Shown one piece after another: positions 22,382-41,575 of a DNA stretch of 64,000 bases. Origin of the DNA: Gillisia sp. CAL575 (GTDB lineage Bacteria > Bacteroidota > Bacteroidia > Flavobacteriales > Flavobacteriaceae). Both the position numbers and the translations under genes were made by a program. Under the pieces are notes generated by a model. That model was not told where the DNA came from. It worked only from the letters and a program-made list of their open reading frames with translations, and made no database searches. How positions within the stretch are numbered: the stretch's first letter is position 1; each line of letters starts with the position of its first letter. The stretch lies in contig NZ_APHJ01000021.1 in assembly GCF_000403785.1 (NCBI RefSeq), forward strand, positions 62,001 through 126,000. Reading direction: 5' to 3'.

Positions 22382-22963
22382 TTATCTAAAGAAATATAAA
22401 AACACAAACAGGTAAACCCAGAGAGCATCAAGAAAATGCCAAAAGGTGGCACCTAGCTCAATTCCAAGCATTTGACCCTTTTTGTATCGTTGTTTAAAAT
22501 GGTTATAAATTACAACCAAAAGCACTATCAGGCCTGCCGTAAGGTGGGCAAGATGCAATAGAACAACCACATAAATAAATGAAGTAGTAATTGTACTCTC
22601 GCTTCCTGTAAAGTAATATCCAGAAGCTATAATTTCTGAAAAACTTCTGAATTGCAGATCCACAAAAACGATCCCCAATGCTAAAGTGCTTAATAGAAAT
22701 GCAGTTGCTTGTGACCTACTCCCATTTAGAATAGCTCTTTTGGCAAGTATAAAAGTGATACTACTAACTATAATAACCAAAGTGCTCCAGTATAAAGTCT
22801 CTGGTAATTCAAAATCCGAGATCCAATCTGGCCTGTTCTTACTAACAACATAAGCACTGGTAATACCCGCAAACATCATTACCATACTGGCAATACCAAA
22901 CCAAAGCATCATTTTTTTAGCTCTGCCAATTTTAAAGCTTTGGGTTTCTTGTGTTATATCCAT
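22382..22963 (-). CDS. Cytochrome c oxidase subunit III-like protein (short)
   Basis: A 193-residue protein with five predicted membrane helices. It carries subunit III features (WFGIASMVMMFAGITSAYVV near the start, LHLAHLTAGLIVLL, and the C-terminal GATFWHFLDALWVYLFVFLY). Bacteroidota commonly encode a short and a long subunit III side by side; which one occupies the classical position in the oxidase is not clear from sequence. The gene overlaps ctaB by ten bases and is followed by the long subunit III gene after 45 bases. Confidence 0.9.
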   Translation of the reverse strand: MDITQETQSFKIGRAKKMMLWFGIASMVMMFAGITSAYVVSKNRPDWISDFELPETLYWSTLVIIVSSITFILAKRAILNGSRSQATAFLLSTLALGIVFVDLQFRSFSEIIASGYYFTGSESTITTSFIYVVVLLHLAHLTAGLIVLLVVIYNHFKQRYKKGQMLGIELGATFWHFLDALWVYLFVFLYFFR

Positions 22964-23856
22964 TCTCTTAAAAATTTATCTAATACATAAACAATCTGCA
23001 AAAGTGTGATGTAGGATACACTTGCAAACATTAATTTTTTAGCTGAAATCGCATCGCGATTCTTATATAATTTGAAGGCATAATATAGCATCCCTAAACC
23101 AAGAACTAGAATTATAGCACCTGCATAAGGTGTTAAAAACAGTCTGCCCGTCACTCCAAATACAGGGATCAAAGAAACTAATATCGTCCAAACGGTATAT
23201 AATATAACCTGAATAGCTGTGCCCTTGTCTCTTTTGCCTGTAGGAAGCATGAAGAATCCGCCTTTTTTGTAATCGTCGAATAACCACCAGCCAATAGCCC
23301 AAAAGTGAGGGAATTGCCAGAAGAACTGAATCATAAATAGAGTTCCCGGCTCTATACTAAATTCATTAGTTGCAGCCACCCAGCCTAACATAAAAGGAAT
23401 AGCTCCAGGGAAAGCTCCAACAAATACAGATAATGGAGTTCTAGTTTTAAGTGGTGTATAAACACTCACATATAAAAAGATGCTGATGGCCCCAAACATT
23501 GCTGTTTTAGGATTAATAATATATAGAACTACCAAGCCAATGACAGTTAAGGTACTCGCAATTATAAAAGCTGTATTTACAGACATTCTTCCCGCAGGAA
23601 TCGGTCTATTTTTGGTGCGATCCATCAAGACATCAAGATCTTTCTCAATAATTTGGTTATATGCGTTAGAAGCGCCAACCATGCAATAACCTCCAATAGC
23701 TAATAACAACACAGTGACAAAATTCACTACTTCTGCCCCAAGAAAATAACCTGCAACAGACGAAAAAACCACACTTATGGCCAGTCGCATTTTAGTGATC
23801 TCCTTAAAATCTGAAAGTACTGATACAGAAGGGGTATGTACGCTTGTATTACTCAA
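22954..23856 (-). CDS. ctaB: Heme O synthase (protoheme IX farnesyltransferase)
   Basis: It attaches a farnesyl group to protoheme, the first step towards heme A for the aa3 oxidase. The 300-residue UbiA-fold membrane protein has eight to nine helices. The prenyl-diphosphate-binding motif is NAYNQIIEKDLDVLMDRT followed by KNRPIPAGR; the second Asp-rich loop lies at WWLFDDYKKGGFFMLP. It opens the unit with the two subunit III genes and subunit IV, behind a well-formed promoter. No heme A synthase gene is in the window. Confidence 0.95.
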   Translation of the reverse strand: MSNTSVHTPSVSVLSDFKEITKMRLAISVVFSSVAGYFLGAEVVNFVTVLLLAIGGYCMVGASNAYNQIIEKDLDVLMDRTKNRPIPAGRMSVNTAFIIASTLTVIGLVVLYIINPKTAMFGAISIFLYVSVYTPLKTRTPLSVFVGAFPGAIPFMLGWVAATNEFSIEPGTLFMIQFFWQFPHFWAIGWWLFDDYKKGGFFMLPTGKRDKGTAIQVILYTVWTILVSLIPVFGVTGRLFLTPYAGAIILVLGLGMLYYAFKLYKNRDAISAKKLMFASVSYITLLQIVYVLDKFLREWI

Positions 23857-24086: not shown

Positions 24087-26189
24087 TTAATATTCGTAAT
24101 ACCAGTTAAATATATCTGTTCGAAGCCCCACATTAAACCAAACTGTACTTTCTTTTGAAATAAGGTTGGTAGATACTTGAGGATTAAAATCTCTATAAAT
24201 AAGGCTTCCAAAGACTTTAAGATTAGTCACAGGATTAATGATATAACCTGCTTCCACTTCAGAAAACAAAGTAGTTGTTGTATTTCCTTGTCCAATTTTT
24301 ACACCATCCTCAAAAGCTCTATCACGCTCGCTCCTGTAAATATTTCCACCATAATACCTGTCATCGCTTCCATCATCAAAATCAAATCCGCGTTTTCCAT
24401 AGATCACTTTTGCACTTCCAAAAATACGATCTCGTCTATACCTAGCAATCCCAATAATCTCCCTAAAATTAGAACCCCATAAATGCGCTAAAGATTGGTT
24501 GTTATGACCATAATTTAATACAATAGAATTATGAGAATAAGTATAAGGTCTTACCTGATTATATTCTGCTTGCAGATAAAGATCTGGAACATCAAAAGCA
24601 TCAAAATATTTCACTCCTAGCTGATAGCCTAATTTATTTTTCCAACTCTGGTTTCCACCAAAGATCTTTTCAGTAGAAAATTCGTCTATGATCCATTGTC
24701 CATAAAGGTTGATTTGATCACTCAATTTATATTTCCCTGTAATTCCAATTATAGCATTTCCTCCTCTAGCACCAGTAGAGAATTCTATAGATCTATAAAA
24801 GATAACAGGATTTAAATAATTTACGTCAAAACCACGACCGTTATCATTTTGCCAGATCACAGATTCAAACAATCCAAGATTAAATCTTTTAGTAAGATTC
24901 AAACTCAAATAATGATTTGCCATATATTTTGTTCTATAGGATCCTTCTGCAGACACCTCTTCCCTTACATCTCTTAAAGACATAAACGTATTGGTATATT
25001 TAAGCTTCCAAAAACTCGTGTTTAATTTGAAATATGGATACGGACTAGCAATATCACTCATCAACAAAGAGCGATAACCATCTCCAATAAAGTTCTTTCC
25101 ATGACCAAACTGCACATTAAAGAAATCTGAAACTTTATAAGACAAATAACCTTCGGCTACAGGAAAATCATATCCATCTTCTAAAAATTCCTTTGCAATA
25201 CCTCTTCCCGGAATAATTGCTGGATTTCCTCCAAATGGATCAATACTCTCTGCATATCTATTAAAATAATCAGCAAAGCGACCCTGACTTTCAAAGACTA
25301 CCGTATAGAAATTAAAATTCTTTCCCAATCCTCCTTGAAAAATTGCTCCGCGTGTATTATTATATGTAAAAGCGACATCGCTCTGAAAATCCTTTCCTAT
25401 TTGCAGATCTACGACCACATCACCTGTAAACCAGTAATTCTCTCCTTGAAAAGTTACCAAATGCTCATCCCATATTTTTCTTCCTGTCCAAGTCTTACGG
25501 GTTCTCCCTTTTTCAAACTCAGCATCAAAATCGTAATATTTAGAAACTTCATTATATAAATAAGGTTTGGTAGCAGTATGACTATTATTCCCAATCCTAT
25601 TCATTTCAGCATCAAATCTATTGTAACGTTCGTGAGAAAGGGGCACAAATAGATTGCTTGAATTTATTTGACTAATAAAGGGCTTGGAAACTATACTATC
25701 GTATTCAGTAAGTGTGTTTTTCTTTTGAACCGAGCTGGTTTCCTTTGCAATTTTAACCCCATCGGTTAGGGACAACATTTCAGAATATCCAATAGGAATC
25801 TTAAGTGGAAAACGGAATTGAGCATATGCAGGCTTCCCATTATAGGTTGCTGGTGAAATAGTAGGTAATTTTTCAAATACCCGTTGGATCTCTTCTTTTA
25901 ATTCTGAATAGATTGCGTCTATATAAAGCACTTTGAACTTTCCTTCTTTGGTAACTTCAAAAAGAATGATGGCTTCCCCTCTATAATTTTCTTCCGAAAC
26001 CTTTGCAGGAAGCTGAAAATTAGTGGTGAATATTTTCATCAAGGTATTCTTAAAACAAGCTTCTTCTCCACTAAAATCTATTTCTGAGCATTCAGAAAAA
26101 GATGGATAGGTTTCGAATTCAGAAAGTCCGTCTTGCGAAAAAGAGTTGTAGGAAATAAAACAGAGAAGTAGGAATCCAATGTATTTCAT
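24087..26189 (-). CDS. RemB-like outer-membrane protein with N-terminal TonB-C-like domain
   Basis: A 700-residue exported protein (signal peptide ending NSFSQ). Residues about 65-135 resemble the TonB C-terminal domain: GEAIILFEVTKEGKF, then VFEKLPTISPATYNGKPAY and FRFPLKIPIG, matching the corresponding strands and helix of the TonB protein encoded upstream. The rest (about 200-700) is rich in alternating aromatic strands and reads as a beta-barrel, ending FNVGLRTDIFNWYYEY. Size and position fit proteins annotated as gliding motility protein RemB in Flavobacteria, but I cannot align them here. A terminator separates it from tonB. Confidence 0.65.
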   Translation of the reverse strand: MKYIGFLLLCFISYNSFSQDGLSEFETYPSFSECSEIDFSGEEACFKNTLMKIFTTNFQLPAKVSEENYRGEAIILFEVTKEGKFKVLYIDAIYSELKEEIQRVFEKLPTISPATYNGKPAYAQFRFPLKIPIGYSEMLSLTDGVKIAKETSSVQKKNTLTEYDSIVSKPFISQINSSNLFVPLSHERYNRFDAEMNRIGNNSHTATKPYLYNEVSKYYDFDAEFEKGRTRKTWTGRKIWDEHLVTFQGENYWFTGDVVVDLQIGKDFQSDVAFTYNNTRGAIFQGGLGKNFNFYTVVFESQGRFADYFNRYAESIDPFGGNPAIIPGRGIAKEFLEDGYDFPVAEGYLSYKVSDFFNVQFGHGKNFIGDGYRSLLMSDIASPYPYFKLNTSFWKLKYTNTFMSLRDVREEVSAEGSYRTKYMANHYLSLNLTKRFNLGLFESVIWQNDNGRGFDVNYLNPVIFYRSIEFSTGARGGNAIIGITGKYKLSDQINLYGQWIIDEFSTEKIFGGNQSWKNKLGYQLGVKYFDAFDVPDLYLQAEYNQVRPYTYSHNSIVLNYGHNNQSLAHLWGSNFREIIGIARYRRDRIFGSAKVIYGKRGFDFDDGSDDRYYGGNIYRSERDRAFEDGVKIGQGNTTTTLFSEVEAGYIINPVTNLKVFGSLIYRDFNPQVSTNLISKESTVWFNVGLRTDIFNWYYEY

Positions 26190-26265
26190 AAAAGAGGCCG
26201 AGATAATAGTTTGAAACAGCCGAAAGATACCAAAATTTTTATTCTTCCATTTAAAACCTCTCTAA

Positions 26266-26303
26266 ACAAAAAAATTCCCAAACTGCTAAGCAATTTGGGA
26301 ATT
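26266..26303 (-). terminator. Intrinsic terminator after tonB
   Basis: On the minus strand AATTCCCAAA (from 26303) pairs with TTTGGGAATT around an inner TGC/GCA pairing, and a run of seven T residues follows. It lies between the tonB stop and the RemB-like gene. Confidence 0.85.
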
Positions 26304-26323
26304 ATATATAATATTAAAATGTT

Positions 26324-27046
26324 TTAATCCTGAACTTGGAATACAATTGGTAAAGAGTACATAACTCCTACTGGTTTCCCTCTTTGCTTACCTGGTTGCA
26401 TTTTAGGTAATGCATTAATAACTCTAGCAGCTTCCTGCTCTAATCTTGGGTGTGGTGCACGAGAACGAACATCTGTAATGTTACCATTCTTATCAATCTT
26501 AAATTGAACAATAATTCTATTTACTCCACTAAGACCTAACTGGCTCCCTAAATCTGTATTAAACTTTCTGTTTACAAACTCTTGAACCTTTTCACTCATA
26601 CATTTCTTACGCTGATCATTATTACTCAAGTTTTCACAACCTGGGAAAATCGGCACGTTTTCAATAACAGCAAATGGTACATCTGCAATTACCTCTTCAA
26701 CAGGCGCTTCAACAACCTCTTTAACCTCAACGATCTCGTCTTGATTAGTTTCGGTAGACTCAATAATAGTCTCCTCTACTTCTTCCTCATCTTCAACAAC
26801 CTCAATTATTTCTGGGGCTGGTGGCGGTGGTGGCGGTGGTGGTGGTGTATTAAGAATTTCCGTAATTGGAATTTCTTCATCATCTAAATCACCTAGGTCT
26901 AGTTGACCCATATCTAAATTACTTTTATCGTAAGTTTTCCATTCTATACCTTGCCAAGCAAGGAATAAGACTAAAATAAGTCCTAATTGAAGAAAGAGAA
27001 CGCTTCGTTTTGTTAAATCGGCTTTCGGATTTTTCTTGGGTTTCAT
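26324..27046 (-). CDS. Energy transducer TonB
   Basis: TonB passes proton-motive energy from the inner membrane to outer-membrane receptors. The 240-residue protein has one membrane helix (about 15-35), a periplasm-spanning linker with a run of nine prolines (after ITEILNT) and acidic stretches rich in Glu and Val, and a C-terminal TonB domain (IIVQFKIDKNGNITDVR, VINALPKMQPGKQRGKPVG, SLPIVFQV). The linker also holds PIFPGCENL and a second Cys (KKCMSEK), a motif common in Bacteroidota TonB proteins. Many TonB paralogues occur per genome, so no partner receptor can be named. Confidence 0.92.
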   Translation of the reverse strand: MKPKKNPKADLTKRSVLFLQLGLILVLFLAWQGIEWKTYDKSNLDMGQLDLGDLDDEEIPITEILNTPPPPPPPPPAPEIIEVVEDEEEVEETIIESTETNQDEIVEVKEVVEAPVEEVIADVPFAVIENVPIFPGCENLSNNDQRKKCMSEKVQEFVNRKFNTDLGSQLGLSGVNRIIVQFKIDKNGNITDVRSRAPHPRLEQEAARVINALPKMQPGKQRGKPVGVMYSLPIVFQVQD

Positions 27047-27090: not shown

Positions 27091-27495
27091 TCATAAAAAT
27101 GAATTAATCTTATGTTTTAAGCGTTTAAAGAATTTTAAAAATCCCAAACATATGCTCAACGCCAACAAAACTCCGATACTATTTGCCAGTATATCAGCCC
27201 AATCCGGGTCTCGATAATCTGTAAGAGCTCCTTGTAAAACCTCAATTAACATACCAAAAAGTATGATTAAGATTGTAATGTTAAAAAAACCCTTAATCTT
27301 TAGGTTATTATCTTGATTTCTAAATAGATAATAAAAAAACCACATAAAACCAAGCACAAAATATGCACCTAAGTGCATCATTTTATCTGTAGGATTAAAT
27401 TCTCCGAGAGAAATTTTTCCCAATTGTATTAAAGACAAACAGGTGATTAAAACGGTATAAAGAACCGCGAAAATTAAAAACAATCTAGCCCCCAA
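27091..27495 (-). CDS. VanZ family membrane protein
   Basis: A 134-residue protein with four membrane helices. The VanZ-like features are the conserved DKMMHLGAYFVLGF segment and DWADILANSIGVLLALSI near the C terminus. VanZ is linked to teicoplanin resistance in enterococci, but these Bacteroidota homologues have no established role and resistance should not be inferred. The start overlaps the end of gcvH by 11 bases, so the two are translated together; this pairing is common in flavobacteria. Confidence 0.85.
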   Translation of the reverse strand: MGARLFLIFAVLYTVLITCLSLIQLGKISLGEFNPTDKMMHLGAYFVLGFMWFFYYLFRNQDNNLKIKGFFNITILIILFGMLIEVLQGALTDYRDPDWADILANSIGVLLALSICLGFLKFFKRLKHKINSFL

Positions 27496-27865
27496 TAAGT
27501 TCTTTATATTCTTCCGGACTCATTAAACCCGCAAGTTCATCTTCATCAGAAATCTTCATCTTAACCATCCAACCATCTCCATAAGGGTCTGTATTAACTT
27601 TTTCTGGAGTATCCTCAAGGCTTTCATTAAATTCAATGATTTCTCCAGTAAGAGGTAAAAATAGATCTGAAACAGTTTTTACGGCTTCTACAGTCCCAAA
27701 AACTTCTTCTCTCTCCATCGATTCACCAACAGTTTCCACTTCAACATAAACTATATCACCAAGTTCCCCCTGTGCGAAATCTGTTACGCCAATTGTGGCA
27801 ATGTTTCCATCGATTTTCACCCATTCGTGATCTTTGGTGTACTTTAATTCTTGTGGTATATTCAT
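27485..27865 (-). CDS. gcvH: Glycine cleavage system H protein
   Basis: The H protein carries the lipoyl arm between the P, T and L proteins of glycine decarboxylation. I start it at 27865 (126 residues, MNIPQELKYTKDHEWV) and not at the in-frame ATG eight codons upstream (27889), because the promoter -7 box overlaps that upstream codon. The lipoylated lysine is in EEVFGTVEAVKTVSDL, and the C-terminal ends MSPEEYKELIGG. The gene lies apart from any P or T protein gene in this window, between sprA and a VanZ-like gene. Confidence 0.95.
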   Translation of the reverse strand: MNIPQELKYTKDHEWVKIDGNIATIGVTDFAQGELGDIVYVEVETVGESMEREEVFGTVEAVKTVSDLFLPLTGEIIEFNESLEDTPEKVNTDPYGDGWMVKMKISDEDELAGLMSPEEYKELIGG

Positions 27866-27888
27866 AAATTTATTTTTTTCTAGGTGCA

Positions 27889-27919
27889 CAAAGTTAATTT
27901 ATTCTTAGGTCTGTTCAAA
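27889..27919 (-). promoter_or_regulatory. Promoter of gcvH
   Basis: On the minus strand: TTTG (27916-27919), 19 bases, TAACTTTG (27889-27896). Both boxes match the Bacteroidota consensus with ideal spacing. The leader would be under 20 bases, supporting the gcvH start at 27865. Confidence 0.75.
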
Positions 27920-27929
27920 CAGCTATCAA

Positions 27930-30900
27930 TTAATTTCCAAAATTATATCTCAAAGTGAATCCCGAACGAATAGTTGTTTGAGGGAACGCTGTAGAAATAG
28001 CATATTCAGAGAAGGTATGATCATAATAAAACAAGGCCGTTAGGTTTTTAGATACCGCATAGTCTGCAACAAAATTAATTGCCCATAAGTCTTGCCCTGC
28101 GATCACTTGATTATTATCAAGATCTAGATATCTAATAATATTAATATTTTTTCTATAAGCAACATCTGCTTTAAAATTAAGATCACTACTTAGCACGCGT
28201 TGTTTTCCACCAAAATTAGTCCCAATCTTAAGATCCTTAATTCTATAGCCAAGGCCTAAAATATACTCATTCCCTTTCACCTCTGTTAGCAAGTTATTAT
28301 CAAAGCTTAAGGACATTGTTCTGTCTTTCTTAATTTCAGCTAATATTCTAATCGCTTCAGTGGTTTCCAGGTCTATCCTAATCAATGGGCTAAATAGTTC
28401 TGTTAGATTGATATTTGCAAACAGAAGCTTATTCTTAAAGTTATTAGCCTGATTAAATTCAAAAGGAACGTTATCGTTATAATCTAAATTAGTTTGAAAC
28501 TGATTTATCGTATATCCTGCTCGATAACCGTGACTTAAGGAGAATCTTCTAAAATTCTTTTTAAACCAATCCAGTCTCATTAAACCTGTATATTTTAAAT
28601 CCCAATTTGGCAAGGGAACATTTCTAAAAGCCCCTAATTTTACTGATGATGCACTTTGCCCTGTATATGCAGCAAGAAATGCAGGTAATAAAACAGCTTG
28701 ATTGGTTTTTCCATAACCTACTGGGAATCCATCTGCATCTAGATCATTAGAATCCCTGCCATTTTCTGAAGCCAACCTTTGTGCAACCTCCAATCTATTA
28801 TCTCTGAAGTTCTGAAAGGTTTCAGATGATTCTTGATCATTTTTCTGAAATGCACTCTTAATAAGCACGGTTGAAATATTGAAATTTCCGAAGTTGTAAG
28901 GACTCAAAGACTGATACTCCAGAGTACTTTGATCTACTCTATAGTTTTCATTAAATGTTTCTGAATAAATTCTGCTGGCATTTAGATCTATTACAAGATC
29001 TGGGATCAAACTTAAAGAAGCTTGCATATCCAATTGCTTATTTTGAACCGCAGTGTACTGCTGATTGAATTCCTGATACATTGTTAACCATCCATTTCTA
29101 GCCGCAATTCCCCTTACATCATTCTGGCTTCCCAGAGTAAATCCTGTTGTAGGTTTCAACGTTCCCAGAAACCCTATACTTGGAGTGTAACCGGGCAAAA
29201 AGATCCCTCTATTTTCTCTATATGTTACTTGCACTCTCTTTAATGCAGTAACAAGTCCTAACATGGTATTATAGGCTTTATCAGATTTTGGCTTTGTGGC
29301 CTGCACCTCTTCCTTTGTCTCACCTGGGGATTGGGGTACACTGGCACTACGAGCTTTTATGGAATTGGCTGTAGATTTTCTTGGCACAAGGTTTAGATAT
29401 TTATATAAACCTTGCATGTCCATATTTGCATTGATCTGATGAATGCTTGAATTTTGTACCGAATTACCTAAATCTGGAACCCCTTCTAATTGATCGAAAA
29501 TCTGAGATCCACGTTGCCATTGAAAATCACCAGTGTAGGAATACGTAGTTTTAATGAATTCCAAAACTGGAATCTTAGCGAATGGAAGTTCATAGTTTAC
29601 TTGTAACGATTGAAAATGCTGATTAGGAGTTCCTGTTTCAAAAAATTCATCCCAAATACCAATGCTGTTATCCACAAAATTATCTTCAGTAAAATAATTT
29701 CTCACCAATCTATTGTTGGTTGCACTAAAACTAAATTGAAGAGATTTTGTTAAATTATAATTCACCCGATATTGCCAATCAAACATAAAATTACGTTGGT
29801 ATAATGTCGGGATTCCTATGTCATTTTCATTTAAAGATAACTCTCTAAATTTTTGTTCGTTATACTGTCTAAAAATATTAGATCCTAAAGATATATTTGT
29901 TGGTAATAGATTTAAATTAAAATCCTTTACCAAGGAATAATAATCACTACTATCTAAAGCTTTTATATTTTTAAAAGGCTCCAGCGTCAATGGTAAAAAT
30001 CCATAATCGTAAGTTGCTCCAACTCTCACATTCTGACTCAAGGCATCTTCAATTTCAAAATCCCGATGATCTACTTGGTTATATGAACTAGAAAAGGCGA
30101 AATTTTCAATATCATAAGGCATAGGTTTCTTATCTCCTATTCTCTCTTTTCTCAAACCAATAACATTTATACTCTGTCTTTTAGTATAAGATTCAGATTG
30201 CTCTCTCACTAGATCTCGCTCACCTGCATCTGTGATCTCATCTAATCTTGTTTGAAGCTCTAGATCTAAGTACTCTTGGTCATATTTAGGAGTGATCAAC
30301 TCTTCTCCTCTACTATAATTTAATGGAATTTGAACTCCCCATTTTTTAGGTAATAATAGCCCAGCATTTACATTGGTTACTACATCATATTGCTGAAGGT
30401 CTTCTCTACTTCTTTGATTTGGACCTTCTTCTAAGGCTCCAAAGCCAATGGTGCTTTTTCTCCCTGTTGCAGAAACAGTTGCAAAATCGGCAATATTGGT
30501 ATCCATATTAACAATAGCAGCCCAACCTCCTTGATTATCCAAATCAGATAATCTCAATTCATTAAACCATACTTCTCCACAAATATCTGAAGCTGTATTT
30601 TCTGGGCTTCCATTTTTCACCCCTAGCATCATTAATCTTACATTTCCAAAACTTGGGTTACCTTTAATTCCAATTCTTAACTTTCCTACTTCATAAGGAT
30701 CATTAAGATTTGCAATACTAAGGTCTTCATTAAAATAATTCAATTCTGTAGGAACTAGAGAAGGATTACCCAAAACTTTTGTTTTCACTTTTTGTAGTAA
30801 TTCCAATTGCAATAAAAGCCTATTCGCATCTGGCCAAATTTCATCTGCAGAAGTAGCGCCAGGTAAAGTAGCTGTTAGCGGGATTTCAATTTGATAATAA

Positions 30901-33900
30901 TTATCTGTAAAATCTGTTCCTATTCTTATAAATGCGATTAATTGCCCATCTTTTAGAGCAATTTCGTTAACAAAAGATTCCGCATGCAAGAACATTTCCA
31001 AATTCTTATACTGACGCATATCCACCTGAAAATTCTTGTAAACAGCACGAGCATCTTGTGGCTCTAAATCGCAAGTTCTAATAGACAGTGATTGCTCATT
31101 CTGGCGAATATTAGAATTATTATTAAACAATTCTTCTCTATTAACCCCTGGAGGTAATACATAAGGAATTGGCTCTCTGTTTGCATTCTCCTCAATATTC
31201 ACTGCAGAAACTTCGAATAAAGTTCCATCTTCCACCGGCTGATTAGGCTTATCTGGATCTAAGCTTTGATTATATCTTCTATAGTCTCCACGAACCAAAT
31301 CCATTGTTCCAAATCTTAAAACGGTTTCCTGCTGAAAGTCAGATAAGAAAAGTCGCATAAACCTAATAGATCTAAAATCTGCAATACCACCTTTAGTATC
31401 TGTGGGTTCAAAAATTGGCACTTTAAACTGTATCCATCTAACCGGAATGTCTTGACCATTAGGAAGTGGTGCATCCAATTCTCGCACATCTGTAATATAT
31501 GGACTATTAGCTGCATTCATCCCAGGGAAGATCTTCACATCATACTGGAAATAACTATTAATAGTATTCATAGTATTATCTCTATTGAGATCCTCGGTAG
31601 TTGGCAAAGTGGTATTTCCTCTATTAGTATCAGATAATTCTGTTGGAGAATTTCCCTGCGTTCCATTATAATTCCTGTAACGATCTAGAATACTTCCAGT
31701 TCTGTTTAGAAAATATTCGTAATTATCTGCAGATGGATCTGGAAGATTACCAAAAGCTGAAAATTTCAGTGCTTCTTCCGCATCTCCTAATCCATCAAAT
31801 CCTGCATCCTGATTTACTCGCTCTTGACCCTGAGTATCAAAAGCATATATTAAAGACTGATCTGCTGGTACTTTAGCATAAGCCGTACTTACAGTATTTT
31901 GCTCCCCACCATCTTGCGGAAGTCCATTTTCATATTGTTTTCTACCATCCTTAAGTACATCTTCAGAAATATTTCCTAAGTTAAAACTGATAGTTCCCCC
32001 AGTATTCCCAGCATTTTCTGAATAAATAAATGGATCCATGATCCAGAATTCAATAAATTCTACATTGGTCTGCTCAAAATTGGTAGAAGTAATTGCTCTG
32101 GAAATACCCGCAAAATTATTTTTAGGGTTATTTAATGTATTTCCCCCAGCGGCAGCCGGATTATAATTAAAGGGCCCACGCATAGTCGGAGAAAAAGTAA
32201 GATCCATGGTATAGATAACCTGCGGTTGTCCCTGGATCACATCGGTATTAGGAAAAATTTCATTCAGAAAGACCCGCCTTGTCGCAAAATTAGAGAGGTC
32301 TGCATCTGTAATTCCGTCTGGTCTTCTACTGCTATAAAAAATAGGATCTATAGTATACCATGATAAATTTGCTCTTTTATAACCTACAGCTAAATCGCCA
32401 TTACTTAGCTCGCCTCCAAAATCCAAAGGCACGCTAGAAAGTTCCCAGCTTAAAGGATTATTTATCGAGATAGAAGTTTGAGATGCTTCAAAATCGTCTA
32501 TATAAGTAGTTGCTTTTTGATCAAAATCATTTACTTGTGGCGCTCCCGGTTGTAAATAAGCAAATTCTCCACGAATAGAGAAATTAGAGGCAACATCTGT
32601 ATCTATATTTGGTAATTTATTTACTAGCCTAGTTAAAAATGGCACTTCAGTGCTATAAGAAGCGTTTAATCCATAAATAGAGTTGTTAACAGGCTCATAG
32701 CTATAATTAGCCTTTTGAGTAAGTGGACGTTCTTTTAAATTCAAAAATGTTCCTCCAACTAATAATTTTTCATTGAACTGATGTTCTACATTAATCCCCG
32801 TGAATCTTTTAGATTGCTGTCCAAACAATGCGTTATTCTCTGTAGAAACCTGAATTGGAATATCTGAAGCTAGTAAAGCATCGTCTATAATTTGTACCCG
32901 ACCTAACTGGTAATTAACTACATAATCTACTCCTTCCTGTAAAACTCTTCCGCCGGCTGTAACAGTTACGGAGCCTTGAGGCAAATTAAAACCTACTGGA
33001 ATTCCATCTACCTGAGATGATTTATACCTCCCTTTTAACTGAAATTTATTTTTATCGGCGTCTTCTTGCTCTGCCTGAATCTTAGTAGTTCGATATAAAG
33101 ACCTGAACACATATTCCCGCTGATTATCATTATATGTTTCTGGTAAATTATAATCTTCGCCTCCCCCATTAGCTGTATTATCAAGTTTATCAAACAAATA
33201 CTCTCCAAAGGGCTCTACAGTTGTGAAGATTACTAAGCCATTTTGTGGGTTTATAGTAATCCCGGGTACGTAATCAAAAAAGCCATCTCCCCCATTTACA
33301 GGGTCGTTATTGGTATTTAGTTTATCAAGATTAAATACACGCAGCAACGTAGTTTCTGCAACATCTTCTGGCAATGGAACCCCAGATCCCGGAGCTGGAG
33401 ATAAATAATTTTGTGGCTGCGGATCGGTATATAAAATATTTAATCTAAAGTCATCTGCCTCTAATTGAAAAGCACCCAAAGCATAGATGTTTTTCATCAT
33501 TAAATCCCAAACTGGTTCACTCACGTTAGTGACAGTGCTTTTTAACATTTTAACTACCAAGTTCTGGTTGATTCTGGCACCATTATCTTCTGCCTGAGTA
33601 TTTGCGTCTACTCCATCATTGGCAAATTCACCCACCTGATAGACTTGCCCATTTACGGTATATTGAAAAGCAACTCCTAAAACCTCATCATTACTTAATC
33701 GCTGATTAAGACTTATATAACCAAGTCTCTGATCGAAAGTAAATTCATTAGACTTTAATTGTCGGGCATTCTCAAGCTTTGCATAATCCTCACCTTCAGA
33801 AACTACAACTCCGCCAAATCCACTTTGAACTGTAGAAATATCTCTAATGGCAGGAGTTAAAATAGATTCTCCGGGACTGCTAATTCCAAATGGGTTAAAA

Positions 33901-35066
33901 TCGTTGTTCGGGTTATTCGGAAAAGCTCCTTCAGGCACATTAAAAAAACCTCCAGGAGGATTATTTATACCAATGTTCCCAGGAATATTAGTTTCTCCAA
34001 GATCTTGGATAGCAACTATATTTCGAGTATCGTTTAAATTCTGAATATTATTGGTGCGGTTGGTAACCCAAACCTGAATTCGCTGAATTTGTATATTGCT
34101 ATTGATAAATGGATAATTCTGAAGGGACTTATTGTAGTTATCCCTGAAATAATGAGCTAAAAAAAAGTGTCTATCCTGATCATAATCTATAGCAAATTTC
34201 TCAAACTCTTCAACAGTTGCTCCTCCTTCTACATTTACTGTCCTTCTCTCCGATTTTTGTTCAGAAAAAACACCTGTAACCCGCGTTTTTCCAAATTGCA
34301 ATTCAGTCTTAAAACCGAATAAACTTTGAGCTCCCTGAATGAGGGCGCTATTTAAAGGCATATTTACATTCCCGACTTCAATTTTCTGAACGATATCATC
34401 TTCATTAGGAGTATATTCTAACTTCAATTGATTCTGAAAATCAAAGGTAGACTCCGTATCATAATTTGCCAGCACCTTTAGCTTGGTTCCAACATTACCC
34501 AGCAAACTAAGTTGGATTCTTTGGTCGAAATCAAATGTGAGATTACTTCTATTCCTTGGAGAAAAAGAAGGATTATCCTGTTTTGTAAATAGCAAACCAA
34601 GGTCCATAGCAACACTTCCCTGTGGCACCACTTCTATTTCCTTTCCGCCAAAAACACTTTCAAAAAACCCAGAATTCACATAATAACTTGGGAGAAGATC
34701 TTGCTGGGCTTCTGGATCTCCTTCTCTATTTTCAGAAATAGCATTATTTTTTTCCTTGAAATAATTCCGTATTTCCTCCTGAATGATTAACTCTTGATAT
34801 TCCTCTGGACTAAGAATTAAAGGAATGGACAAATTATAAGACCCGAGTTTTTCAGTATAAATATATCTGTTAAGAATAGGATCATACTCATAACTCGCTA
34901 CAATACTCGCAGGATTGGGTAATGACAAGGTTCCTGTTGCATAACCGCTACGGATAGAATCCTGAGCCACAAGAGTATCTTGTGCATATAAACTAGGAGA
35001 AGAGGCAAATAAACAGAAAATCCCAAGCAGGCTTGTTAATTGCAGTTTCAAGTAATTATTCCTCAA
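27930..35066 (-). CDS. sprA: Cell-surface protein SprA, type IX secretion translocon
   Basis: SprA forms the very large outer-membrane pore of the type IX secretion system and is also needed for gliding in Flavobacterium johnsoniae. The 2378-residue length and signal peptide (ending SLYAQ) are as expected. Family features seen include SVAMDLGLLFTKQDNPSFSP near residue 155, ANYDTESTFDFQNQLKLEY, and many aromatic alternating strands with long loops, ending TIRSGFTLRYNFGN. An Asn/Gln-rich, partly disordered stretch with a proline- and lysine-rich piece lies around residues 1880-1930. It is 17 bases after ruvA, an arrangement conserved in flavobacteria, and shares the ruvA promoter. Confidence 0.96.
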   Translation of the reverse strand: MRNNYLKLQLTSLLGIFCLFASSPSLYAQDTLVAQDSIRSGYATGTLSLPNPASIVASYEYDPILNRYIYTEKLGSYNLSIPLILSPEEYQELIIQEEIRNYFKEKNNAISENREGDPEAQQDLLPSYYVNSGFFESVFGGKEIEVVPQGSVAMDLGLLFTKQDNPSFSPRNRSNLTFDFDQRIQLSLLGNVGTKLKVLANYDTESTFDFQNQLKLEYTPNEDDIVQKIEVGNVNMPLNSALIQGAQSLFGFKTELQFGKTRVTGVFSEQKSERRTVNVEGGATVEEFEKFAIDYDQDRHFFLAHYFRDNYNKSLQNYPFINSNIQIQRIQVWVTNRTNNIQNLNDTRNIVAIQDLGETNIPGNIGINNPPGGFFNVPEGAFPNNPNNDFNPFGISSPGESILTPAIRDISTVQSGFGGVVVSEGEDYAKLENARQLKSNEFTFDQRLGYISLNQRLSNDEVLGVAFQYTVNGQVYQVGEFANDGVDANTQAEDNGARINQNLVVKMLKSTVTNVSEPVWDLMMKNIYALGAFQLEADDFRLNILYTDPQPQNYLSPAPGSGVPLPEDVAETTLLRVFNLDKLNTNNDPVNGGDGFFDYVPGITINPQNGLVIFTTVEPFGEYLFDKLDNTANGGGEDYNLPETYNDNQREYVFRSLYRTTKIQAEQEDADKNKFQLKGRYKSSQVDGIPVGFNLPQGSVTVTAGGRVLQEGVDYVVNYQLGRVQIIDDALLASDIPIQVSTENNALFGQQSKRFTGINVEHQFNEKLLVGGTFLNLKERPLTQKANYSYEPVNNSIYGLNASYSTEVPFLTRLVNKLPNIDTDVASNFSIRGEFAYLQPGAPQVNDFDQKATTYIDDFEASQTSISINNPLSWELSSVPLDFGGELSNGDLAVGYKRANLSWYTIDPIFYSSRRPDGITDADLSNFATRRVFLNEIFPNTDVIQGQPQVIYTMDLTFSPTMRGPFNYNPAAAGGNTLNNPKNNFAGISRAITSTNFEQTNVEFIEFWIMDPFIYSENAGNTGGTISFNLGNISEDVLKDGRKQYENGLPQDGGEQNTVSTAYAKVPADQSLIYAFDTQGQERVNQDAGFDGLGDAEEALKFSAFGNLPDPSADNYEYFLNRTGSILDRYRNYNGTQGNSPTELSDTNRGNTTLPTTEDLNRDNTMNTINSYFQYDVKIFPGMNAANSPYITDVRELDAPLPNGQDIPVRWIQFKVPIFEPTDTKGGIADFRSIRFMRLFLSDFQQETVLRFGTMDLVRGDYRRYNQSLDPDKPNQPVEDGTLFEVSAVNIEENANREPIPYVLPPGVNREELFNNNSNIRQNEQSLSIRTCDLEPQDARAVYKNFQVDMRQYKNLEMFLHAESFVNEIALKDGQLIAFIRIGTDFTDNYYQIEIPLTATLPGATSADEIWPDANRLLLQLELLQKVKTKVLGNPSLVPTELNYFNEDLSIANLNDPYEVGKLRIGIKGNPSFGNVRLMMLGVKNGSPENTASDICGEVWFNELRLSDLDNQGGWAAIVNMDTNIADFATVSATGRKSTIGFGALEEGPNQRSREDLQQYDVVTNVNAGLLLPKKWGVQIPLNYSRGEELITPKYDQEYLDLELQTRLDEITDAGERDLVREQSESYTKRQSINVIGLRKERIGDKKPMPYDIENFAFSSSYNQVDHRDFEIEDALSQNVRVGATYDYGFLPLTLEPFKNIKALDSSDYYSLVKDFNLNLLPTNISLGSNIFRQYNEQKFRELSLNENDIGIPTLYQRNFMFDWQYRVNYNLTKSLQFSFSATNNRLVRNYFTEDNFVDNSIGIWDEFFETGTPNQHFQSLQVNYELPFAKIPVLEFIKTTYSYTGDFQWQRGSQIFDQLEGVPDLGNSVQNSSIHQINANMDMQGLYKYLNLVPRKSTANSIKARSASVPQSPGETKEEVQATKPKSDKAYNTMLGLVTALKRVQVTYRENRGIFLPGYTPSIGFLGTLKPTTGFTLGSQNDVRGIAARNGWLTMYQEFNQQYTAVQNKQLDMQASLSLIPDLVIDLNASRIYSETFNENYRVDQSTLEYQSLSPYNFGNFNISTVLIKSAFQKNDQESSETFQNFRDNRLEVAQRLASENGRDSNDLDADGFPVGYGKTNQAVLLPAFLAAYTGQSASSVKLGAFRNVPLPNWDLKYTGLMRLDWFKKNFRRFSLSHGYRAGYTINQFQTNLDYNDNVPFEFNQANNFKNKLLFANINLTELFSPLIRIDLETTEAIRILAEIKKDRTMSLSFDNNLLTEVKGNEYILGLGYRIKDLKIGTNFGGKQRVLSSDLNFKADVAYRKNINIIRYLDLDNNQVIAGQDLWAINFVADYAVSKNLTALFYYDHTFSEYAISTAFPQTTIRSGFTLRYNFGN

Positions 35067-40243: not shown

Positions 40244-41575
40244 CTATCTTTTTTCAAACCTTAAAATCGCGTTTTTCGGTTTTAAGGTGATCATAGGAAG
40301 TATTTCAATAGGCGTTGTTTTCGGAGCGATCTTATAGAGTGTTACCATTTCTGCAACCGCAATTATCATCTCAAACATTGCAAAATTATTACCTATACAT
40401 TTCCTAGGTCCAGCTCCAAAAGGGGCATAAAACGGAGTATGCAAATAGGGGTCTGAATCTGAAAATCTTTCTGGTTTGAATCTCTCAGGTTCTTCCCAAT
40501 GTGATTTATGTCTATGGATTTCATTAAAAGAAAACAATAAATTAGAGCCTTTTGGTATCTCCATACCTTGAAAAGAATCGGCTTCTTTATTGATACGATC
40601 TATAAAATAAGCCGGGGGATAAAGTCGCATAGTTTCTTCAACCACCTTTTTTGTATAACTACAAGATTGGATAAACTCCATTAAGGAATTTGTTTCCTTT
40701 TTTGCCTTAACAACCTCCTCTAAAATCTTTTGCTGAGACTCTGGATTTCTAGCTAATAACTCGGCTGCAAATGTGAGCGCATTAGATGTTGTCTCGTGAC
40801 CTGCTGTAAATAAAATCAGGATCTCATCTATTAGCTGCTCTTCATCCATCTCATTCCCATCCTCATAACGAGCATCTAAAAGCATATCTAACAGATCTTC
40901 TTCTCTTTTCCCACTTTCTTTTCTTGCCTTTACCAGTTTTTTAAGGATCACTCTGGCTTCATCTGTTAGATCTGTGTGTTTCTTAATTTCCCCACCATAT
41001 TTAAACCAAAGACTTAAAAAGGGTTGTCTTAATTCCCTAACCAACATTTTTTGAGCTGCTTCGGTAATATATTGCAATCTGGTAATATCTTTATCTCCTA
41101 CAGCACTGCTGAATAAAGATTTCACTACCGTTTGAAAAGCCAGATCATTAAAGATTGGAAAAATATCTATCTCGGTTTCGGTTTCAATTTTATCCAGCTC
41201 AGTAAGAATTGCTTTATGGATACTCTCCAACAACAAAGTGAGTTGTTTTTTATGGAACGCAGGTTGTATCAGTTTCCTCTGTTTTTTCCAATGTTCCCCT
41301 TCAGCAGTTAACAGACCACGACCAACATATTTCACAAGATCTTTAGTCTGTATAGGAGATTTTGTATAATTCTTCTGGTTTTTCTGAAGTACATATTCTG
41401 CTAAATAGGCATCTCTGGAAAAAATTACAGATTTTCCTGGACCAATAATTAACCTGAAGGTATCGCCATGTTTCTCAAAATTACTATGATGAAAAGGCAA
41501 TGGATTCTTAAGAATATTTGAGGCATGCTTCAAAAATTTGAAAAATGAAACCTTTGGAATTTCTTTCTGACCCAT
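40244..41575 (-). CDS. Cytochrome P450
   Basis: A 443-residue soluble heme monooxygenase. The heme ligand cysteine lies in [17 protein letters not shown], the I-helix oxygen-binding motif is [11 protein letters not shown], and the K-helix ExxR is ETMRLYPP. These put it among the class that resembles CYP102/CYP4-type bacterial P450s. The substrate is unknown and no ferredoxin or ferredoxin reductase gene lies nearby, so its electron donor must come from elsewhere. The start codon follows a TACTTTTG box by about 80 bases. Confidence 0.93.

Follow-up and report, generated by a model that had tools for sequence, protein, structure and literature searches.

A TonB C-terminal-like domain at the N terminus of a predicted RemB-like outer-membrane barrel in Gillisia sp. 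CAL575 and its family

Background

What does an outer-membrane barrel protein encoded beside tonB share with TonB, and what might the shared part do? The question is raised by a 64,000-nucleotide stretch of Gillisia sp. CAL575 (contig NZ_APHJ01000021.1, positions 62,001 to 126,000; the whole stretch is called the window here), in which a gene for a RemB-like protein follows tonB on the minus strand. In this 700-aa barrel protein, a divergent TonB C-terminal domain (CTD) occupies residues ~26-133. Judged from its sequence, the domain is most likely a periplasmic docking domain rather than an energy transducer. Both the domain and the kind of barrel are known; what is new is their combination, found in one family among the sampled genomes.

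The order along the protein is a signal-peptide-like start, the TonB-CTD-like domain, a linker, a helical segment and ~18 barrel strands. The features of the two genes, in window coordinates, are the following.

24087..26189, minus strand: RemB-like outer-membrane protein, 700 aa (open reading frame, orthologue alignments, AlphaFold2 model)
26136..26189, minus strand: signal-peptide-like N terminus, residues 1-18 (sequence reading; helix 2-17 in the AlphaFold2 model)
25791..26114, minus strand: TonB-CTD-like domain, residues ~26-133 (hhalign with its control, model, PDB matches, conservation)
26088-26090, minus strand: codon of C34, in the TonB-CTD-like domain of the RemB-like protein
26055-26057, minus strand: codon of C45, in the same domain
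25701..25790, minus strand: low-confidence linker, residues 134-163 (pLDDT <50 at 135-163; fast-changing region 134-175)
24087..25457, minus strand: barrel region, residues 245-700, for which the element list gives ~18 strands (AlphaFold2 full-length model, Foldseek)
26324..27046, minus strand: tonB, 240 aa, with the CTD at its C terminus (Pfam TonB_C 9.8e-11)

Sequence and fold of the domain

Orthologues were taken from 80 loci, which are the closest relatives and not a random sample, and gave alignments A3, A4 and A5 of 45, 45 and 27 sequences, plus the window. The pattern RVxxxLPxxxPxxxxGKP is exact in both proteins, as RVFEKLPTISPATYNGKP in the barrel protein and RVINALPKMQPGKQRGKP in TonB. 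BLASTP of the barrel protein against the adjacent TonB gives modest single-sequence evidence (E 6e-7 in one comparison, 29% over 56 aa). The Pfam TonB_C model (PF03544) scores the window's barrel protein at E 0.1 and 13.5 bits, under its cut-off of 24.6, and matches 34 of the 46 RemB orthologues at E<=1, the best at 7e-6. The NCBIfam TonB model TIGR01352 matched none of the 46 at E<=10; on the window's own TonB it gives 22 bits, also under its cut-off of 27.1.

Profile-profile comparison carries the assignment. The 46 RemB N-terminal domains aligned with 28 TonBs in hhalign with probability 98.6 and E 1e-15 (a single comparison) over 109 columns. In the control, the 120-residue segments starting at residues 1, 20, 31, 61 and 91 matched (E 4e-8 to 1e-15), and none of the 16 that begin at residue 121 or further on had a probability above 1.2%. 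C34 and C45 are invariant in all 46 RemB rows, and the same cysteine pair is found in 28/28 TonB rows. A sequence search of the PDB with the domain profile found no relatives (best E 0.029, to unrelated proteins), nor did a search with the whole barrel protein. TonB-dependent transporter plug and receptor families were absent from the Pfam matches of the 46 orthologues at E<=1.

The AlphaFold2 model of residues 20-139 (pLDDT 92.0, pTM 0.83) consists mainly of a helix, a short helix, two strands, a helix and a strand. The first 15 Foldseek rows against the PDB are all CTDs of TonB, FusB or HasB; the top row, and the sole one below 0.001, is 6i97_D (E 3.1e-4, TM 0.51 by query), the C-terminal part of TonB complexed with FoxA. 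VIA-align gives the domain model a Z of 8.7 to 6i97_D, with 88 residues at 2.5 A. The fold alone cannot separate TonB from TolA, because TolA domain III is listed next by VIA-align at Z 7.9; it is the sequence profile that points to TonB.

A preliminary description of this locus had put a TonB CTD at the N terminus of the barrel protein and named profile comparison and structure prediction as checks; the hhalign match with its control and the predicted fold bear the claim out. It had also located both genes correctly and seen the shared RVxxxLPxxxPxxxxGKP pattern. The extent given there, about residues 65-135, needs correction: the domain covers about residues 26-133 and takes in the first helix and C34/C45.

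The RemB domain and the TonB CTD (PF03544) are alike in predicted fold, element order, scaffold residues and cysteine pair, and differ in their setting: the TonB CTD is C-terminal on an anchored inner-membrane protein, whereas the RemB domain is N-terminal on a predicted outer-membrane barrel. Whole TonB has an inner-membrane anchor, a proline-rich span and a C-terminal CTD, none of which the RemB-like protein has. The domain could not carry proton-motive force alone because it lacks the inner-membrane anchor, as well as the proline-rich span.

Comparison with neighbouring TonBs, phylogeny and selection

Columns were compared between the 46 RemB domains and 27 neighbouring TonBs, after L078 (a TonB row with an odd C terminus) and L002 (a small secreted protein) had been dropped. 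The scaffold positions P29, C34, C45, F58, G71, F77, G83, L97, E100, P109 and P113 are kept in the RemB domain. R196, P198, H199, P200, G219 and F236 (R-x-P-H-P, G219 and F236), invariant in the 27 TonBs, are not kept. The RemB domain has invariant positions of its own, E78 and Q124, and nearly invariant ones at Y89, A92, Y94, K98, F105, Y116, N117 and P132, which suggests a partner of its own. Two replacements change charge: K183, present in 85% of the neighbouring TonBs, corresponds to the invariant E78, and R196 corresponds to D91 in 87% of the RemB domains. F46 and P61 of RemB are common to other TonB_C groups and differ from the neighbouring TonBs.

In the domain tree a long stem leads to a single clade of RemB domains (SH-aLRT 100). 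The neighbouring TonBs fall into a separate clade (99), which includes two other rows and no RemB domain. The tree was made by a quick method from 120 columns and 114 rows with a midpoint root; many forks are unresolved, and L002 and L133 are long branches. It gives no sign that the domain derived from the adjacent tonB. Recent local duplication of that gene was considered as the source and is not supported, given the separate clades and the F46/P61 pattern. For a small secreted TonB_C protein as the donor, the tree gives no resolution.

These comparisons bear on the proposal, made in the preliminary description, that the domain mimics TonB or competes with it. The domain would then bind the TonB boxes of transporters and block, store or regulate the access of TonB, a reading in line with the fold match to receptor-bound TonB (6i97_D) and with a gene that adjoins tonB. 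The proposal is not supported by the residues, since R-x-P-H-P, G219 and F236 are lost and K183 has become an invariant E, nor by the tree, where RemB stands on a long branch of its own. The losses are not decisive in themselves, because strand pairing is largely main-chain. We regard this explanation as unlikely.

For the closest pair, the window and L038 (dS ~1), dN/dS is 0.10 in the domain, 0.03 in the barrel and 0.19 in the linker; all other pairs are partly or wholly saturated. The linker region, residues 134-175, evolves faster than either the domain or the barrel. The domain thus evolves under purifying selection.

The barrel and its identity as RemB

In the full-length AlphaFold2 model the domain is followed by a linker of low confidence (135-163), then by a helical stretch and ~18 barrel strands. 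Foldseek relates the barrel to OccD2 (E 2.1e-9), Wzi (2.7e-8), OprD and AlgE; Wzi 2ynk has a TM of 0.40 by query, the top value among the 50 rows listed, and 0.60 by target. The likeness to the 18-strand OprD/Wzi/AlgE barrels lies in the predicted fold, and domain-less relatives of the barrel occur in a polysaccharide-gene context; no Pfam sequence match links these barrels to the RemB-like one. We know of no OprD-, Wzi- or AlgE-type protein with a TonB CTD. The last strand of the barrel ends in an aromatic residue. The signal-peptide-like start together with an even number of strands would place the N-terminal domain in the periplasm.

The putative name RemB comes from the position of the gene relative to sprA, which agrees with published tables. 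The tables list remB as Fjoh_1657 and sprA as Fjoh_1653 in F. johnsoniae (PMC4572689), and the locus tags of two Gramella strains place remB near sprA (PMC4891872). Flavobacterium RemB is likened to the window protein by a position a few genes from sprA and a listing among gliding genes, both taken from these tables. There, remB is also classed as adhesin-like and filed with type IX secretion (PMC4572689, PMC4891872), an entry at odds with the barrel architecture: Fjoh_1657 is called adhesin-like there, whereas the window protein looks like an integral barrel. Literature searches, which reached few subscription papers, found no description of such a TonB-like domain for RemB.

These entries favour another view, in which RemB would be a surface adhesin secreted by the type IX system and its similarity to TonB would be incidental. 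The predicted barrel is integral and closes with a strand ending in an aromatic residue, and the TonB similarity is significant (hhalign E 1e-15). The type IX secretion label does not fit the window protein, because no type IX C-terminal model was among the NCBIfam matches of the 46 orthologues at E<=10. This view is hardly credible.

A link to motility comes from the published gene tables and from a presence/absence association uncorrected for kinship. Both remB-bearing Gramella strains are tabulated as gliding (PMC4891872), and remA, remB and sprB are reportedly missing from two Flavobacterium species that do not glide (PMC6801697). Among 149 genomes of the family of the window, a GldG match was found in 92 of the 96 with the barrel and 37 of the 53 without, among the matches listed (Fisher p 1.7e-5, uncorrected for kinship, genome reduction and incompleteness); just one of the four barrel genomes without GldG is at least 90% complete. 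A requirement of RemB for gliding was rejected as a firm claim, as the GldG association is uncorrected and the gliding tables consulted carry no mark of remB as essential (PMC4572689, PMC4891872).

Distribution of the fusion

The counts of barrel matches in the family, order and class surveys are among the matches listed. Of the 96 barrel-bearing family genomes, 95 have the domain, 91 of them in one frame and four split over contigs; G128 is without it. The window's order was surveyed in 296 genomes, and none of the barrel matches in 84 genomes outside the family reaches below residue 167. At least three of the 84 are fragments, and the remaining partial matches were not individually checked; in G432, G326 and G214 the domain cannot be judged because the N terminus is missing, the barrel being clipped by the contig start. 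Among 149 genomes of the class, the matches outside the family begin at residue 149 or beyond.

At 14 domain-less loci (L118-L130 and L136; L130 is the locus of G128) the barrel proteins are 526-575 aa long, TonB_C matched none of them, and tonB was not found within the 0.3 to 10 kb of flank available per side. TonB_C, searched with filters off at E<=10, also matched none of 14 further barrel open reading frames from 11 outside-family loci chosen for their long frames, whereas this test gave the window protein 147.6 bits. In G269 the 847-aa frame is a read-through from another gene in front. Within the sampled genomes the union of TonB CTD and barrel was seen in one family alone, and we read it as a family-specific fusion. 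The preliminary description had named conservation as a check; the domain and, as follows, the gene pair are both conserved.

Gene order and the origin of the barrel

The order on the minus strand is sprA, gcvH-like, VanZ-like, tonB, barrel gene and ctaB. The neighbours of the two genes are as follows.

27930..35066, minus strand: sprA, type IX translocon (TIGR04189, 2791.9 bits)
27485..27889, minus strand: presumably a gcvH-like gene, conserved neighbour (synteny)
27091..27495, minus strand: small gene that we take to be VanZ-like, conserved neighbour (synteny)
22954..23856, minus strand: ctaB/cyoE heme o synthase, conserved downstream neighbour of the barrel gene (TIGR01473 4.6e-75; synteny)

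Upstream of remB, tonB was found in 84 of the 86 domain-bearing loci (80 + 6); the contigs of the other two, L059 and L077, start just before remB. In all 84 loci with upstream DNA the nearest tonB shares the strand of remB; the gap between them has a median of 123 bases and does not exceed 4086. Two tonB copies lie beside remB in 69 loci, one in 12 and three in 3 (L038-L117, L131-L135 and L137); the window has a single one. The adjacency is weak evidence of a functional pair, because gcvH-like, VanZ-like and ctaB are conserved neighbours too.

The constant neighbourhood is nevertheless what an explanation by force relay builds on, in which the domain pairs with the CTD of TonB, or with the periplasmic domain of another motor protein, and passes force on to the barrel. 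TonB CTDs are capable of dimerising, and K183 and R196 of TonB, both basic, have acidic counterparts in RemB (E78 in all domains, D91 in 87%). The charge change was, however, noticed post hoc and without a test against chance, and the adjacency is possibly gene-order inertia, so that this explanation appears quite improbable. More specifically, RemB could be a box-less TonB-driven barrel, its own domain pairing with the CTD of the adjacent TonB (E78/D91 facing K183/R196) and the ExbBD-TonB motor pulling or gating a polysaccharide-type barrel on the surface of a gliding cell. We consider this version very doubtful.

The domain-less barrels have other neighbours. A polysaccharide-synthesis gene lies directly upstream in 11 of the 14 loci: Polysacc_synt_2 in L119, L120, L125, L127, L128 and L136, Glycos_transf_4 in L122, L123, L124 and L129, and Glycos_transf_1 in L121 (the context of L121, L122 and L136 was taken from the overlapping loci L168, L169 and L174). 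In L118 the gene is a hexapeptide transferase, and L126 and L130 have neither. Directly downstream of the barrel, L120, L127 and L128 have the exosortase XrtF (TIGR04128), and L120 also an XrtF-associated membrane protein (TIGR04127).

In G155 (L168) sprA, gcvH, vanZ and tonB are followed by an aldolase-like gene and a polysaccharide cluster, after which come the barrel and ctaB; tonB is 9 kb away from the barrel. Four family genomes without RemB (L184, L186, L187 and L189) have sprA, gcvH, vanZ, one or two tonB and ctaB. Of four other stretches, three are different TonB places and L188 has gcvH, vanZ and tonB without adjacent sprA or ctaB. The anatomy of the protein suggests that, in a single family, a surface-polysaccharide barrel came to adjoin the genes for TonB and the type IX system. 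A simple history would be that intervening polysaccharide genes were lost, which brought tonB and the barrel together.

Other TonB_C proteins

TonB_C occurs at seven places in the genome of the window's own strain, four of which are not classical TonBs: a peptidase-like membrane protein, two small secreted proteins and RemB. The membrane protein (L005, C20:189702) has 492 aa with a C-terminal TonB_C domain and is presumably an M56-type peptidase, by its look. The small secreted proteins are L002 (C36:14948) and L003 (C36:17396), one of them with a lipoprotein-like start, and such proteins were also found in related genomes. Like RemB, those of L003 and L139 have a signal-peptide-like start and behind it a TonB_C domain that includes the cysteine pair; they are without a barrel and stand on a different branch of the domain tree. 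Five of the 33 extra loci yielded no domain, as the wrong central open reading frame had been chosen.

The spread of TonB_C over such proteins fits a generic periplasmic module in RemB, serving for example as a folding aid or in self-association, barrel gating or peptidoglycan contact, and F46 and P61, shared with other TonB_C groups and unlike the neighbouring TonBs, fit it as well. Against this, the domain has its own invariant positions and is retained in 95 of 96 genomes among the matches listed, which argues for a specific role. A generic module is possible, though we think it somewhat unlikely.

Docking as the preferred reading

The explanation preferred here is a family-specific fusion in which a TonB-CTD-like domain on a barrel of the polysaccharide-locus type docks to a putative partner of its own, located in either the periplasm or the outer membrane; we give it about an even chance. 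The predicted barrel (~18 strands, OprD/Wzi/AlgE-like fold) would bear the domain right behind the signal peptide, and the domain would sit in the periplasm, connected by a flexible linker. In known complexes the CTD fold binds a partner peptide by addition to the edge of its sheet. In RemB the same fold would tether the barrel to the putative partner.

Several observations weigh against this explanation. The last strand, which is the expected peptide-binding edge, varies more among RemB domains than among TonBs, apart from Q124, I131 and P132. The confidence of the barrel model is moderate (mean pLDDT 71.3), general porins also match it in Foldseek, and no Pfam barrel family matched the window protein or the 46 orthologues. 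The place next to tonB may have been inherited with the gene order, and the fold by itself says little on function, because TonB_C occurs in other proteins of the genome.

The anatomy of a TonB-CTD-like domain, a linker and a polysaccharide-type barrel replaces the adhesin-like label of RemB by one that can be tested. It offers a clear target for testing how the RemB barrel is tied to the remaining cell envelope. Should the domain dock to TonB or to TonB-box proteins, an outer-membrane barrel would be coupled in a new manner to the inner membrane.

Elsewhere in the window, positions 40244-41575 encode a cytochrome P450 that resembles pentalenene oxygenase (NF045812, 6.6e-57, below the cut-off).

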